This document shows, one piece after another, positions 913 through 42,985 of a stretch of 64,000 nt of DNA. Each line of letters starts with the position of its first letter. Position 1 is the first letter of the stretch. Made by a program: the position numbers and the translations under genes. The DNA is from Photobacterium sp. Ph5. GTDB taxonomy: Bacteria > Pseudomonadota > Gammaproteobacteria > Enterobacterales > Vibrionaceae. The stretch lies in the NCBI RefSeq assembly GCF_022129445.1, contig NZ_JADQAQ010000008.1, positions 58,492 through 122,491 on the forward strand, written 5' to 3'. The notes under the pieces were generated by a model. The model did no database searches, was not told where the DNA came from, and saw only the letters and a list, made by a program, of their open reading frames with translations.

Positions 913-992
913 GTATCTATTGTAAGTATTAACAATGTCTTATGTGCTAACGTTGTTAATTTGAAAGCTAACGACAACGATGCATTTGAGGC

Positions 993-1076
993 AAAAAATA
1001 GCCCGAAACGACTCCTGTCTCGGGCCTAGGGGAATGGCTCTCGTAAGAGCCTTGCGCTAACTGGTTAGTAAATGGA
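993..1076 (-). ncRNA. sdsR: small regulatory RNA SdsR (RyeB)
   Basis: Read on the minus strand, this stretch carries the blocks I know from E. coli SdsR in the same order: TTAGCGCA, then GGCTCT hairpinned with AGAGCC, then CATT and CCCT, then a terminator hairpin of the type CCGA..ACAGGA.TCGT.TCGG ending in a T-run at 993-998. SdsR is a sigma-S-dependent, Hfq-bound RNA of about 100 nt that represses outer-membrane proteins and mismatch repair (mutS) in enteric bacteria. In E. coli it also lies in the rsmF/yebST neighbourhood, which supports orthology. The 5' end is my estimate, placed about 7 bases after TGTAAT (complement of 1082-1087). The rsmF gene (same strand) ends 107 bases upstream of it. 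Confidence 0.82.
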
Positions 1077-1182
1077 GTTTGATTACACTTTCAATGTTAG
1101 TTGAATAATGTTTATTTTCCAGTTATTGCATTTAATAAAATCATCATTAACGCTGCTTTATGAAATTAACGATATTTTTATC

Positions 1183-35321: not shown

Positions 35322-35786
35322 ATGAAATATCAGCAGCTTGAAAATCTTGAAGCCGGTTGGAAATGGGCTTATTTAGTAAAAAAACACAAGGAAGGCGAAT
35401 CAATTACACGCTTTATTGATCGCAGTGAAGCAGAAGTTGCTGTTGAGGCTCTTTTAGATATAGAACATGAACCAACAAAAGTGATTGAATGGATTAGTGC
35501 TAATATGTCTCCTACGCTTGAAAATAAGCTAAAACAAGCTATTCGAGCGAAACGGAAACGTCACTTTAATGCAGAACAAGTACATACACGGAAGAAGTCG
35601 ATTGACTTAGATTTTCGTGTGTGGGAAAAGTTGGCAGAAAAATCGCAAGAGTTAGGTTCTACATTATCCGATACTATCGAATATTTGATCAGTGAAAGTA
35701 ACCGAACAGAGCGAGCTAACAAACAGGTTAGTGATATCAAAAATAACCTGACAGAACTACTAAACATTGAATCTTTTGATAAATAA
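35322..35786 (+). CDS. matP: Ter macrodomain organiser MatP
   Basis: 154 residues (E. coli MatP 150). MatP binds the 13-bp matS sites, keeps the terminus region compact and links it to the divisome through ZapB. The N-terminal four-helix part begins MKYQQLENLEAGWKWAYLVK. The ribbon-helix-helix follows at about 88-135 (RKKSIDLDFRVWEKLAE..). The C-terminal coiled coil is about 130-150. It is next to ycbZ-fabA, as in E. coli. The dif site and eleven matS-like sites in this window show that it sits inside its own domain of action. Confidence 0.96.
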   Translation: MKYQQLENLEAGWKWAYLVKKHKEGESITRFIDRSEAEVAVEALLDIEHEPTKVIEWISANMSPTLENKLKQAIRAKRKRHFNAEQVHTRKKSIDLDFRVWEKLAEKSQELGSTLSDTIEYLISESNRTERANKQVSDIKNNLTELLNIESFDK

Positions 35787-36976: not shown

Positions 36977-37417
36977 TTAATATGTTTTCTTCCCTAATAA
37001 TAAGCTACTTAAAGAAACAGACTTACCTGAATCTAACTCTAGAATACCTCTATCATCCGAGATATAAACAGCTTCTTTTGTTCTAAGGGAATCAATATAA
37101 AAGTTCCTGAATGTGAAATCTACTTCACGACTTTTATTTAATCGCTTCACTCCAAAGGTGTAGTAGTGATTTTGTATTTTGAGAAATACACCACTAAATA
37201 ATGACGACGAAACAATTCGATCGCTTTTATCTTTTCTAATTAAATTAATTTTGATTCGTCCCGTATTTATATCTACCTTCATAATTTCAGAACCAAAAGC
37301 AGGGTATTGCTTAGTAAATAAATATGATGATTGCGTATTAACTGCATTAAATACAGCTTGAACAAAAATAAACAATACTGCTAAAAAAATTCCAAGGAAA
37401 GCTTTTTTAAGCATCAC
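36977..37417 (-). CDS. ToxS-like single-span membrane protein, partner of the regulator upstream
   Basis: 146 residues. A basic N-terminus and one hydrophobic helix (about 6-26) are followed by a periplasmic domain with no cysteine, ending SVSLSSLLLGKK. It is not similar enough for me to name it ToxS. Its size, topology and 11-base overlap with the ToxR-like gene are those of the effector partners in ToxR/ToxS, TcpP/TcpH and VtrA/VtrC. It probably stabilises the periplasmic domain of the regulator or shares a ligand with it. Confidence 0.65.
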   Translation of the reverse strand: MMLKKAFLGIFLAVLFIFVQAVFNAVNTQSSYLFTKQYPAFGSEIMKVDINTGRIKINLIRKDKSDRIVSSSLFSGVFLKIQNHYYTFGVKRLNKSREVDFTFRNFYIDSLRTKEAVYISDDRGILELDSGKSVSLSSLLLGKKTY

Positions 37418-38198
37418 ATTGCTCCTGGTTAACTTGTGAAGTTAAATCAATATAGTGTTCATTATGTACACCGATTAATTTATAACGCTCACATAATCCA
37501 CCAATAGGAAATGCATACCATTGACCAATATCACCCGTTTTATGTTCTATTATTGCCTGTGTTACAGGGTTGGGTAACTCAACACCATTATAATTAACTG
37601 AAATACCATCAACATCTACCGTGTTTACAAAGAAAAGATATTGATAACAGGCAAATAGCGTCACTAAAAAGAAAAAACAAACAATAAGAAAGTCAAATAG
37701 ACTGAATGCATTTAATTTATTAAGTAAGCGGCGCTTTTTTTTCTCATTATTTTCACGAGCATCAATGATGACTTCTTGATGTTCTTGTAATTCTAACTGT
37801 TCTGCTATTTCATGTGCTTCTATATGCTTACTGATATCTTCTGGCAATGGAGGGTGAGAACCATCATCAGCTAGTGAAACTGCTCTAATTGAGTAACCAA
37901 GTTTAGGTTCAGTAATGATTATCTTGTGTTCACCTATTTTACTAAATGAAGTGCGCAGATTTTTAATCGCAACAGTTAACGAATTATTCGTTACGATTTT
38001 TCCTTGCCAGCACTCTTTTAGCAATGTTTCTCTATGTACGGTATTATTTGCGGTGTTTGCTAGTAAAGCAAAGATGTGAGTCTCTGATCGTGATACTTTT
38101 AAAACTGCATTATCACTTATACGGGTGATCGTTCTTCGAGAATAATCGACATCAAAACGACCAAAACGTTCGACTCCGTTGTTTACTTCATCGTTCAT
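37407..38198 (-). CDS. ToxR-like membrane-bound transcription regulator
   Basis: 263 residues. An OmpR/ToxR-type winged helix lies at about 12-108: LKVSRSETHIFALLA, VHRETLLKECW, NNSLTVAIKNLR and the wing KIIITEPKLGYSI. A charged linker follows, then one transmembrane helix (about 168-190). The short periplasmic domain of about 70 residues has two cysteines (235 and 261) that could form a disulphide, as in ToxR. There is no receiver domain, so the signal should come from the periplasm or membrane. It is not the main ToxR, whose periplasmic part is longer. Targets are unknown. Confidence 0.85.
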   Translation of the reverse strand: MNDEVNNGVERFGRFDVDYSRRTITRISDNAVLKVSRSETHIFALLANTANNTVHRETLLKECWQGKIVTNNSLTVAIKNLRTSFSKIGEHKIIITEPKLGYSIRAVSLADDGSHPPLPEDISKHIEAHEIAEQLELQEHQEVIIDARENNEKKKRRLLNKLNAFSLFDFLIVCFFFLVTLFACYQYLFFVNTVDVDGISVNYNGVELPNPVTQAIIEHKTGDIGQWYAFPIGGLCERYKLIGVHNEHYIDLTSQVNQEQCDA

Positions 38199-39028: not shown

Positions 39029-39181
39029 GCAACAAAGCTATCAAGCCAAATCACCATCATTTCAATATCATACTTAACTTATGTTTTCTCTATTTTAAAA
39101 TGTCACTCATTATTCCCCGATTAAAATGTCTCCTTTTAAGGTAGTTCATAGTGGTGAATTTGGGCTTATAGAGTAGGGAAG

Positions 39182-40525
39182 TCACGGCTTTTTCTTGGTG
39201 ATAGGTATAAATTTTTCAGGGTGAACTAACACGGGATTGATGGCTTCAAGTTGACGGATTGCTCGCTGTTGGGCGGTTCGTTTGGGGGCACTTTTACTGC
39301 GACTACGCTTTTGTTGTTGGTCATATTGTTGCTGTTTCGTCTGGGCGAATTTTAATACTGCGCCTAAACGTTTATTATCGACCACCTGACCTTGGTCAAC
39401 ATCTTCGAGCTTATCAAATACCTTAAATTCTAATTTCCGATGACCGTATTGAATAGCGATGGTGCCATCTGGGCGATCTAGAACTTTCACGACTTGATGT
39501 ACAAGTCGTTGATTTTCTTCAGTTGGATCAACTAAATAGATGACTTTGTCATATTGAAATGTCAGTGACTTTGATAATTTTCTTGGCTCTTGCCACGCAA
39601 AAATATCGTGTAACTCATCAGTCGATTCACGTAATGGCCGATGCATGTCTTTAGGATATTGGGCTGCTTTGGCAAAATGTGGGTTAAAATCAGTGATAAA
39701 GTCGGGGAGCCACGCATTAGCTTATCAATGTGTTGTAAACGCATTTCTTTGACTAAGCGATGTTGTAAGGTTTTGTTGGCACGCTCAACACGGCCTTTGG
39801 CTTGAGAGCTGTTTGCGCAAATCAATTCAATGTTTAAGTCACGCAATACACGACCAAACTGAGTCACGCGGTTGGTTTCTGCATCCCGTTTACTGACATG
39901 AAATACCGCATGGCGATCACTGTAAAAAGCAGTGGGGTTGCCATGATGTTCAACATATTCATGCGTGGCAACCATGTAATCAAATGCAGATTCTGTTTCG
40001 CTAAAACGTAAGTTCATCAGTTTGCCGGTGGCATCATCAATGAAAACCAACAAACAACATTTGTTACTGCGGCCTTCAAACCAATCATGATGTGAGCCAT
40101 CTATCTGAATTAACTCGCCATAACAATCACGTCGATGACGTGGTTGATAAACACGAGGCTTACGTTTGAAATGTGGTACCCAAAGGCCATCAGCGATCAT
40201 CCATTGGCGTAAGGTTTCTAATCCAATTTTAATGCCGTGGCGTTCAATCAATTTTTCACGTGCCAATGTGGGTCCGAAGTCTACGTAATATTCGTGGATC
40301 AGATTTAAACATTGATGGCGTATATCAGCATTAATTTTGTTGCCTGGCGATTGTCCACGACGTTGATGTACTAAACCAACAGCACCAAGATCTCGATAGC
40401 GTGTTATTAATCGTTGAACCTGACGAACACTGACATTAAGAAGCTGAGCAGCATCTTAATGTCAGTGTTCGTTTTTCGCAAACATCACGAATTGTACCTA
40501 AGCGAAATATCTCTTTGTCATTCAT
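39182..40525 (-). pseudogene. transposase with two frameshifts (ISNCY/rve type)
   Basis: The reading would begin at ATG 40525 (MNDKEIFRLGTIRDVCEKR..), pass through an HTH (AAQLLNVSVRQVQRLITRYR) and a DDE integrase core, and end in QQQKRSRSKSAPKRTAQQRA..ITKKKP. The core carries the first Asp in ELIQIDGSHHDWFEGR, the second in FYSDRHAVFH and the Glu in ANSSQAKGRVERANKTLQH. The first break is at 40424-40453, where an inverted copy of neighbouring sequence replaces the normal codons and brings a stop. The second is a one-base loss near 39720, after LQHIDK. The enzyme cannot be made as one chain. Confidence 0.85.
40424..40471. repeat. 18-bp perfect inverted repeat inside the transposase gene
   Basis: CGAACACTGACATTAAGA (40424-40441) and its exact reverse complement (40454-40471) flank 12 bases that are themselves nearly symmetric (GCTG-AG-CAGC). 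Only the left arm keeps the transposase reading (LLNVSVRQ). The right arm lies where a different, frame-keeping sequence is expected. Confidence 0.8.
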
Positions 40526-40640
40526 GTTAACAACATATTTTGTTTAACTCACATTGATCAGCAGATACAGATCACTATATAAAAACAGGACATTTTAGCT
40601 TTGCAGAAAAGAGACACTTTACCTTGGGGTCTACACCCTC

Positions 40641-40668
40641 AGTGCGCATTATGTATATTATGTTAAAT
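40641..40668 (+). other. dif: dif site of chromosome 1 (XerCD recombination site)
   Basis: 28 bp in the classic layout: XerC arm AGTGCGCATTA (40641-40651), centre TGTATA (40652-40657) and XerD arm TTATGTTAAAT (40658-40668). It equals the V. cholerae chromosome 1 dif as I remember it and differs from E. coli dif at two positions of the XerC arm. XerC/XerD resolve chromosome dimers here with FtsK. It is also the entry point for filamentous phages and other elements that use host Xer. MatP, matS-like sites and convergent KOPS around it support the call. Confidence 0.95.
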
Positions 40669-40676
40669 AATGTATT

Positions 40677-40793
40677 GTGGTAACTATATCTGATCTTATT
40701 TATCCTAATCTTGCACCTGACATCTCTACTCTACTTGTGGGTTTATTGTTGTATTTAACAGTATTCGCTATTTACCATAAAATAGGTAATTAA
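40677..40793 (+). CDS. possible small membrane peptide starting 9 bases after dif
   Basis: A GTG-started frame of 38 codons ending in TAA (40791-40793). It encodes a short polar start (VTISDLIYPNLAPD), one hydrophobic helix (about 16-33) and a YHKIGN end. There is no Shine-Dalgarno, since the dif sequence occupies that place. It may be the 3' end of a gene once cut at dif, or chance. Confidence 0.25.
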   Translation: MVTISDLIYPNLAPDISTLLVGLLLYLTVFAIYHKIGN

Positions 40794-40857
40794 CATCAAT
40801 TTTAAATACTGCTGCAAATGTTCAGTTTGCCTTGTACTTAAAGCTTGCTGTTAATTA

Positions 40858-40886
40858 CTAGAGATTCGATTAATTCGAATCTCTAG
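40858..40886. repeat. 12-bp inverted repeat at the end of the hybrid kinase gene
   Basis: CTAGAGATTCGA / TCGAATCTCTAG with a five-base centre. It includes the last codons of the kinase gene. No T-run follows on the minus strand, so it is a 3'-end hairpin rather than a proven terminator. Confidence 0.55.
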
Positions 40887-42985
40887 ATCGTACTTTCTGA
40901 TTGCTGATTTTCTTTAAGTTCTTGGTATTTTTCCAGTAACACATCTAACTCGTTTGAACAGATTGGCTTAGCTAAAAAACCATCCATACCGATGTCATGA
41001 TAGATTTTTTGGTCACTTTGCATCGCATTCGCGGTTAATGCGACGATTGGTATGCTTATTTTTCTCTGTCTAAGTTGTTTTGTGGCTTCTAAACCATCCA
41101 AAATTGGCATAGATATATCCATTAATACCAGATCGAACTTATTGTGACCCTGTAACAGTACATTTATCGCTTCCTTTCCGTTGTTAGTTATCGCAACTTT
41201 ATGTCCTCGTCGCTCTAACATCAACTTAGCAACCAACTGATTGGTGTTACTGTCTTCTGCTAATAATATATTTAACGAGCAATCCGATTTATTTTTAAAT
41301 TTAGTGTCGGTTTCACAACTGTGTAGAGATGGATAGATAATTGGAATGGAAATTTTAAAACAGCTTCCCGTTCCTAATTCACTTTCTAGTGATATTGTTC
41401 CATTCATCTTTTCGATTAAATGTTGGCTAATTGCTAGGCCTAACCCTGTGCCACCATATCGTCGAGTAATGCTTCCATCCGCCTGATGAAATGGATTAAA
41501 TATATTTTCTTGTGCATCTTTAGCAATACCAATACCTGTATCGATAACGGCTATTTCAATATTGTCATCAACTTTACGAGCAACAACACGTACCGAACCG
41601 ACGCTAGTAAATTTAACGGCATTACCGATTAAATTAAATAACACTTGAGCAATTCGATTTTTATCACCGTAGATTTGTTTGGGGATTGCATCATCAATTT
41701 CACATTGAAACTGCACACTCTTTTTTGTTGCTTGAGGTGCTAATTGATCAGCGACAAGCCGTATGCTTTCAACAACATTAATATCACTATTAAAAAGTCT
41801 AAAGCTCCCCGATTCTATTCTTGATAAGTCTAATATGTCATTAATAATAGTCAGTAATAAATGTGCTGACTGATCCATTTGTGATAACCAAAGGTTTTGC
41901 TTTTTATTTAAACCAGATAAAGACAGTGACTCCATTAAACCTAATACGGCATTAAGTGGTGTTCTTATCTCGTGACTCATCATTGCTATAAATTGTGATT
42001 TAGCTCTGTTGGCACTTTCTGCTTGTTTTCTCGCTTCTTGCAAATCAAATAAACGTTTCTTTCTACTCGTTATGTTCTTGGCTGTTCCTCGAAACCCTTG
42101 CAATATCGCATACTTATCAAAATAAGGTGTACCACTAAAGCTATACCACTGTTCAGTGTCATCAACATTTAGATTCCATTCTAAATCTTCAAATACAACT
42201 TGCTGTAACAATTTACTCTTAAGCTTATTTTGAAATAATGGGTACTTATTAAAAAATGCGATAAAGTTATCACAGGAAATTTGTGTATTAGCCACATGAG
42301 GTTCTGATATATAGGTAAAGTTATAATCAACATCAATTTCCCAAAACCAATCACCTGCAGTTTTGGCGAAATCTTTAAATCGTTTCTGACTAAACGTTAG
42401 CTGTTGTGTTCGGGCTGCGACTAATGATTGTAACCTTTCGCGATAATCTATATCTATGATCGCTCTTGCAAGTAATGGTCTAAATTTATTAAGTACTCGG
42501 CGACATCTTGGCGTGAACTGGCTTTTATCATGGCTCATTAAAATCATAACAGCATCACTAGAGCTTACTTTCACGCCCGTTAATAATGCAGAATCGTAAT
42601 CATTTAATGCTTCTATTGATTGTGTACTGAACTCAATAATATCTTTTGGGGAATATAGTGCGATACATTCACCATTGATTGCTCGTCTAAATGTACTTTC
42701 CATCAGCCAAGAATTTGTGCCAAAGCGGTTATCAGTACTGACAAGTACATCCAGCATTTCTTGTTCGTCTTCTCTAGTAAGAACTAAAGCTTGATCAAAA
42801 CCGATAAACTTACGTAGGACTTCTAATAAGCTATTGAAAACTTGTCGCTTATCGTTCGCACCCGCCATTGCAGAGATACCTTCTAAGATGGCTTCATTCT
42901 CATCTTGTAACTGGCTCTCTCGTTCTTGACTTCGCAATAAATCAATGACGGTTTCTTGTAGCTTTTCAGATTCAGAACTTATCAT
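40883..42985 (-). CDS. hybrid sensor histidine kinase (VpsS/NosP-associated kinase type)
   Basis: 700 residues, cytoplasmic, no membrane helix. The order is an N-terminal coiled coil, a GAF-like domain (about 40-180), a PAS domain (about 203-310), a HisKA domain with His338 in MMSHEIRTPL, an ATPase domain with NRIAQVLFNLIGNAVKF, DTGIGIA and GGTGLGL, and a receiver domain with Asp623 in LVLMDISMP. The end of the receiver (FLAKPI) is normal. The phosphorelay output (an Hpt protein) is not in the window. It lies 12 bases after the FIST-domain gene. In V. cholerae the same pair is VpsV-VpsS (NosP and its kinase), feeding biofilm control; orthology here rests on context and domain order. Confidence 0.88.
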   Translation of the reverse strand: MISSESEKLQETVIDLLRSQERESQLQDENEAILEGISAMAGANDKRQVFNSLLEVLRKFIGFDQALVLTREDEQEMLDVLVSTDNRFGTNSWLMESTFRRAINGECIALYSPKDIIEFSTQSIEALNDYDSALLTGVKVSSSDAVMILMSHDKSQFTPRCRRVLNKFRPLLARAIIDIDYRERLQSLVAARTQQLTFSQKRFKDFAKTAGDWFWEIDVDYNFTYISEPHVANTQISCDNFIAFFNKYPLFQNKLKSKLLQQVVFEDLEWNLNVDDTEQWYSFSGTPYFDKYAILQGFRGTAKNITSRKKRLFDLQEARKQAESANRAKSQFIAMMSHEIRTPLNAVLGLMESLSLSGLNKKQNLWLSQMDQSAHLLLTIINDILDLSRIESGSFRLFNSDINVVESIRLVADQLAPQATKKSVQFQCEIDDAIPKQIYGDKNRIAQVLFNLIGNAVKFTSVGSVRVVARKVDDNIEIAVIDTGIGIAKDAQENIFNPFHQADGSITRRYGGTGLGLAISQHLIEKMNGTISLESELGTGSCFKISIPIIYPSLHSCETDTKFKNKSDCSLNILLAEDSNTNQLVAKLMLERRGHKVAITNNGKEAINVLLQGHNKFDLVLMDISMPILDGLEATKQLRQRKISIPIVALTANAMQSDQKIYHDIGMDGFLAKPICSNELDVLLEKYQELKENQQSESTI

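Follow-up and report, generated by a model that had tools for sequence, protein, structure and literature searches.

The 28-bp sequence at 40641-40668 of the 64,000-nt stretch of Photobacterium sp. Ph5 DNA analyzed here (the window) is a well-supported candidate for the dif site of Photobacterium chromosome 1, judged by its sequence and its terminus context, and we found that it is followed on its XerD side by a conserved companion element. Chromosomal dif is usually portrayed as a bare 28-bp sequence that needs XerCD and FtsK alone, unlike plasmid sites, which have accessory sequences. The companion follows dif by about 70-200 bp in one fixed orientation and, when the search is made from dif sites alone, is present at 51 of 53 assessable sites. 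With chances that we put slightly above even, dif and its companion would make up a bipartite site, the companion serving as an accessory element through which XerCD/FtsK are controlled. If true, the companion would be an overlooked control layer in the family of the two-chromosome model V. cholerae, and it offers a short, exact target (Box1/Box2, hairpin, and spacing) for testing the control of dimer resolution on two chromosomes.

An earlier, sequence-only reading had placed the main-chromosome dif in the window and had split it into a XerC arm, a TGTATA center, and a XerD arm, and both claims were borne out. The site on the + strand is an intact 28 bp, AGTGCGCATTA-TGTATA-TTATGTTAAAT, in the 11+6+11 layout, and it is predicted to be the place where XerC/XerD, under FtsK, resolve dimers of the main chromosome. 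With as many as 3 mismatches allowed, it is the sole match in the window, and 100 shuffles yielded no match at all. A looser dif pattern matched twice in the whole assembly (4.46 Mb, 116 contigs), on different contigs and with different centers; the second match, on contig C2, is GATGCGCATTA-TGTACC-TTATGTTAAAT, which is dif2. The two sites, on separate contigs, fit one dif per replicon in an assembly whose replicons are not closed, and no superior dif candidate was found anywhere in its 116 contigs. The relative G030 likewise carries one strict dif site on each of two large contigs, and among 73 strict sites in same-genus genomes the center is TGTATA in 28 and TGTACC in 23. Taken as a dif, the window site is ordinary and expected in Photobacterium; the exact 28-mer did not occur in the paper texts searched. 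The E. coli dif differs at two bases in the XerC arm.

The sequence-only reading had further equated the 28-mer with the chromosome 1 dif of V. cholerae, and here it was mistaken. Position 17 is A in the window, giving the canonical center, versus G in N16961 dif1. Val et al. 2008 (PMC2533119) describe dif1 as departing from the consensus by A10→T and A17→G, and Carnoy and Roten 2009 (PMC2731167) print it as AGTGCGTATTATGTATGTTATGTTAAAT. The window dif is otherwise like V. cholerae dif1 and dif2, which are XerCD sites dependent on FtsK, in its 11+6+11 layout, T10, terminus position, and replicon-specific centers; it is unlike dif1 in having TGTATA (A17) rather than TGTATG. When G17 was replaced by A, FtsK-independent recombination by V. 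cholerae XerCD went up, and different dif centers on two chromosomes have already been described (PMC2533119).

We found good support for the further claim that the window is the replication terminus. On the 122-kb contig, cumulative GC skew is maximal at 95,087, about 4 kb from dif at 99,132; skew is clearly positive to the left of dif and weak to its right (-0.007, -0.006, and -0.049 per bin), where there are only 23 kb of contig. Within the window, the cumulative curve dips past 41 kb, has recovered roughly its former height by 57 kb, and declines thereafter. G030 gives a clearer skew test than the own contig, with a clear switch: among 20 sampled stretches, the 11 through dif inclusive are positive and the 9 beyond it are negative. 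KOPS on the 122-kb contig converge on dif, since 5 of 5 to its left point rightward and 2 of 2 to its right point leftward. The window itself holds 3 KOPS, a number that does not exceed chance and is too sparse to serve as a stand-alone signal. The matS-like sites (at most 2 mismatches) number 17 in the window versus 4.6 expected, a count reached by 0 of 100 shuffles, and matP lies close to dif (Table 1), its closest relatives being in Photobacterium sp. SKA34 (98%), P. angustum (97%), and Photobacterium sp. GB-56 (96%), which marks the window as Photobacterium DNA. The variable zone that the sequence-only reading had put down to dif is instead explained in part by a decayed IS1202-type element adjoining dif. 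Among 80 named Vibrionaceae matP loci (up to 10 kb on each side), 40 have a dif-like site, whose orientation is that of matP in 39. The shortest matP-dif distance in Vibrionaceae matP loci was 0.4 kb, in Salinivibrio.

The insertion sequence ends 5 bp (40636-40640) from the XerC arm and carries ISNCY-type transposase pieces, the middle one above and the C-terminal one below the curated cutoff; by these two features, it is of IS1202 type. Elements of the IS1202 family (ISAjo2 and others, which target dif) stop 5 bp short of the XerC arm (PMC10132070) and, like the window copy, have an ISNCY-type transposase. The window copy is unlike them in being fragmented. Its right end has the 5-bp CCCTC, and no second CCCTC, as a target duplication would give, was seen in front of the left end, which was placed by eye. 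In the close relatives L004 and L095, the sequence of the left flank directly abuts dif. ACA stands at the distance of the IS end from dif in 25 of 87 arrangements, compared with at most 9 at other offsets, save offset -27 (25 cases), which lies inside the same kind of IS end. The interval between matP and dif also holds, at 36977-38198, a CadC/ToxR-type membrane-bound winged-helix regulator with a small membrane-protein gene alongside. Elsewhere in the window (989-1125), Rfam recognizes the antisense small RNA pair SdsR/RyeB and SraC/RyeA.

Table 1. Coordinates of dif, its companion element, and neighboring features in the window
Feature	Position	Strand	Remarks
matP	35322..35786	+	PF06303, PF17414; ~5 kb from dif
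Decayed ISNCY/IS1202-type insertion sequence	39082..40635	-	Transposase in pieces; left end estimated by eye
XerC-binding arm of dif	40641..40651	+	AGTGCGCATTA; T at position 10, like V. cholerae dif1 (PMC2533119)
dif central region	40652..40657	+	TGTATA
XerD-binding arm of dif	40658..40668	+	TTATGTTAAAT
Pyrimidine-rich stretch	40699..40728	+	31-60 bp 3' of dif; pyrimidine fraction 0.67-0.72 in 88 family arrangements
Companion element (whole)	40753-40859	+	XerD side of dif; two XerD-arm-like boxes, core TTTACCATAAARTA, hairpin
Companion Box1	40753..40763	+	ATTTAACAGTA; 9/11 to reverse complement of XerD arm
Companion Box2	40770..40780	+	ATTTACCATAA; 10/11 to reverse complement of XerD arm
Companion core	40771..40784	+	TTTACCATAAAATA; conserved motif
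Companion hairpin	40785..40859	+	From folding and alignment counts
Second hairpin	40860..40884	+	By end of convergent kinase gene; sequence not common to more distant relatives
Hybrid sensor kinase	40883..42985	-	Convergent neighbor of companion

The companion, which was found by comparing dif flanks, starts 84 bp from the window dif. Over 18 positions, 47 of the 51 companions found from dif sites match exactly, 3 have 1 mismatch, and 1 has a 1-base insertion; control stretches on either side show 5-9 mismatches. The set of 53 sites comprises named loci and unnamed loci of the same genus after removal of duplicates, with the own genome, the other-family loci L083-L092, and 3 dif sites whose sequence ends 57-103 bp after dif left out. 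The companion is missing at L012 (P. phosphoreum) and L081 (V. rumoiensis) and is present in V. mimicus (L078), a relative of V. cholerae. Descriptions of V. cholerae dif1 and dif2 lack a companion in the available text of PMC2533119, whereas the window dif has one.

Pairing also held in whole genomes. Across 36 same-genus genomes, the own one included, 65 of 73 strict dif sites (after prior removal of 8 dif-like matches with an altered XerD arm) are followed at 90-200 bp, on their own strand, by a companion, and dif adjoins 65 of the 72 motif copies. Of the 8 sites left without a partner, two are those of G005 (one of them at a contig end) and one is the own dif2, whose companion is broken; the rest are the G030 site with a 1-base-insertion copy, one site in the 74%-complete G012, and extra dif-like sites in G004, G007, and G026. 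Family-wide, 243 of 296 Vibrionaceae genomes, from 11 of 13 genera, have the core motif, often in 2 copies, while a reversed-pattern control gave a few single matches. Adjacency family-wide was counted for gaps of 78-97 bp past the XerD arm only, and here the core was found at 191 sites in 133 genomes. All 24 genomes representing other families of the order (one per family) lacked the motif even with 1 mismatch allowed. A query spanning dif and companion had no match to its companion part in 5426 E. coli genomes at E 1e-5, although this search could miss a single copy that has diverged; in 1 genome, the match was to the dif end.

Both boxes resemble inverted XerD arms. Box1 matches at 8.8 of 11 positions on average, and Box2 departs from the arm always at the same base, an invariance that is imposed by the choice of the set, yet is also seen in the 51 companions found from dif. 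The spacing between the boxes is variable, with a range of only 3 bp in 85 of 88 arrangements. Box2 overlaps a promoter-like hexamer, TAAAAT (40778-40783).

The distance between dif and the core is distributed unevenly, with clusters near 80, 91, 101-102, and 112 bp, about one helical turn apart. At a period of 10.5 bp, the Rayleigh R is 0.545 for 88 arrangements and 0.52 for 68 spacer-similarity clusters, a value reached by 0 of 5000 jittered sets. Gaps counted family-wide follow the same pattern: 65 sites at 78-82 bp versus 17 at 83-87 bp in 237 genomes, and 97 sites at 88-92 bp versus 12 at 93-97 bp in 296 genomes. When only the 36 distinct distances are used, R is about 0.3. Moreover, 58 genomes have two sites in range, and the 22 pairs that differ by at least 4 bp do so by 4-7 bp in 8 cases, by 8-12 bp in 10, and by more in 4, so that within-genome pairs alone do not favor whole helical turns. 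Given these last two results, shared descent could carry part of the spacing signal.

Evidence for the hairpin comes from folding and from alignments. In the window, its folding energy lies far below that of shuffles (z -7.5), and z is below -2 in 72 of 86 relatives (mononucleotide shuffles). We counted stem pairs in two alignments, one of 23 rows of the genus Photobacterium and one of 9 named Vibrio rows plus 9 rows of the unnamed genus g34, with 12 rows of Enterovibrio, Grimontia, and the unnamed genus g27 excluded. Paired cells amount to 89.7% and 89.8%, versus at most 43.8% and 53.7% when the arms are slid, a control that favors the stem somewhat because the stem was named first and counted afterwards. 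Cells with both sides changed number 15 and 11 and, like the covariation score, lie above 500 of 500 shuffles. In addition, the pairing of 12-nt arms is better with the true partner (mean 10.04) than with a swapped one (8.92) in 85 copies, all with dif upstream, the loci being the first match per genome. The two covariation measures least inflated by kinship did not exceed shuffles: pairs with a double change number 5 and 4 (69 and 86 of 500 shuffles), and pair types gave 139 and 430 of 500. The compensatory changes are therefore few events. RNAalifold alone did not find the outer stem in one alignment, and Rfam places no known RNA family over the hairpin or companion.

We consider it likeliest that a protein binds Box1 and Box2, and the likeness of both boxes to inverted XerD arms makes XerD itself our best guess. 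Acting through a loop or a complex in helical phase with dif, this protein would then tune synapsis or FtsK activation, and the hairpin may be an extruded or single-stranded part of the arrangement. Viewing the companion as an accessory site draws on the analogy with cer (ColE1) and psi (pSC101), in which a Xer core site is likewise joined to a longer noncoding stretch at a defined position and Xer recombination is influenced by accessory sequences about 180-200 bp long (PMC5357621, PMC2533119). This comparison is one of layout alone: the companion lies on the XerD side of a chromosomal dif, whereas cer and psi use ArgR or ArcA with PepA for plasmid resolution that is independent of FtsK (PMC5357621, PMC2533119). 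In E. coli with FtsK, dif1 and dif2 carried on plasmids are good recombination substrates, and Val et al. 2008, in the available text, noted no conserved motif flanking them (PMC2533119). This suggests that the companion is dispensable for the basic reaction. Also counting against the accessory reading are the unvarying mismatch of Box2 to the XerD arm, the variable box spacing, the dif sites without an intact companion (the own dif2 among them), the covariation measures that did not exceed shuffles, the possible inheritance of the phasing, and the stray copy that has no dif remnant. We found no description of the companion in the available portions of PMC2533119, PMC4246890, PMC5357621, PMC6549158, PMC2731167, and PMC3025954.

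Alternatively, the companion could be a promoter with a small structured RNA, a chromosomal analog of Pcer/Rcd of ColE1 whose promoter is phased to dif-bound XerCD. Such a reading draws on the promoter-like TTAACA-17-TAAAAT (10/12), the narrow range of box spacing, the compensatory changes in the hairpin, and the Rcd precedent (PMC5357621), where hexamers resembling a promoter likewise stand with a hairpin at a Xer site. However, unlike in Rcd/Pcer, the companion hairpin overlaps the expected start: the stem begins directly past the -10-like hexamer, and a normal start would remove its base. Stem mismatches in relatives comprise 18 G-T versus 28 A-C, and this lack of strand preference means that a + strand RNA is not favored. 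Terminators behind the core on the + strand are not in excess (4 of 88, 3.5 expected), and the kilobase holds 2 promoter-like sites, below the 4.1 of shuffles. We consider this explanation unlikely.

It is less probable still, and in our view quite improbable, that the boxes are XerD sites unloading MukBEF at the terminus, in the way that XerD acts on SMC in Bacillus subtilis. Two XerD-arm-like boxes beyond dif would suit such a role, and unloading of SMC by XerD has been cited (PMC8669397, PMC12322038), but the own genome has MatP, the unloader of MukBEF in E. coli (PMC8669397), and the hairpin, side, orientation, and spacing relative to dif would all be left unexplained.

The hairpin could also be read as the transcription terminator of the convergent neighbor gene, given that its end is close to the kinase stop codon in the window, that it folds on both strands, and that terminator-like sites behind the core are found on the - strand in 9 of 88 arrangements versus 4 of 88 on the + strand. 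We regard this as very improbable, as the stem is AT-rich, no terminator-like site falls at the hairpin, and the companion also occurs at the dif of second replicons and of a plasmid, where the neighbors are different. The slimmest chance goes to the idea that the companion imitates, or is left over from, the attachment site of a CTX-type phage. An attP of this type carries a pair of dif-like sites, inverted and about 90 bp from each other, which fold when the DNA is single-stranded (PMC5357621, PMC4246890), a geometry like that of dif and an inverted dif-like sequence 68-182 bp apart. However, the companion is conserved at the dif of both chromosomes across much of the family, unlike a relic, and in the best 20 of 52 phage records the match is confined to the dif end of the query (1-40 at most) and leaves out the companion. 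A Tus/ter-type replication fork trap was dropped from consideration, the companion being on one side of dif only; Galli 2019 found no replication fork trap in V. cholerae (PMC6549158).

A wider form of the accessory-element reading holds that Vibrionaceae dif is a two-part site on nearly every chromosome and at least one large plasmid, in which a phased accessory element controls dimer resolution, and that islands cutting dif bring a replacement, much like phages at tRNA ends. We hold this wider form tentatively, at somewhat less than even chances. Stray companion copies bear on its second part. Of the copies distant from dif, we examined 8. In 6 of them, roughly where dif would stand upstream, there is AGTTAAAT, made up of an A and the final seven bases of dif, which close the XerD arm. 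All six genomes with such a remnant also have a complete dif, accompanied by a companion of its own, on the same strand at a distance of 19-43 kb (about 25 kb in G088). The other two copies are one at a contig start and one in G102 without a dif remnant. These six copies suggest that islands splitting dif bring a replacement.

Three islands of 19-32 kb (L215-L219; G009, G016, and G008) lie between an intact dif plus companion and a stray companion plus remnant. They contain adjacent genes with similarity to tyrosine recombinases, all below the curated cutoffs, which stand beside dif in G009 and G016 and within the island in G008. On the simplest reading, we infer that the islands inserted into the XerD arm and replaced both arm and companion; if true, this would argue for selection on the companion. 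The companion also bears on why mobile elements that use dif preserve its flank.

Two further sites depart from the usual arrangement. At the own-genome dif2 (L192, G000:C2:8000-14000), the companion is broken, with both boxes kept and the hairpin replaced, and a second box-like pair lies about 100 bp beyond it. On the 337-kb V. coralliilyticus plasmid p337, the single plasmid of its kind examined, dif is followed 159 bp on by Box1, Box2, and a core altered at its end.
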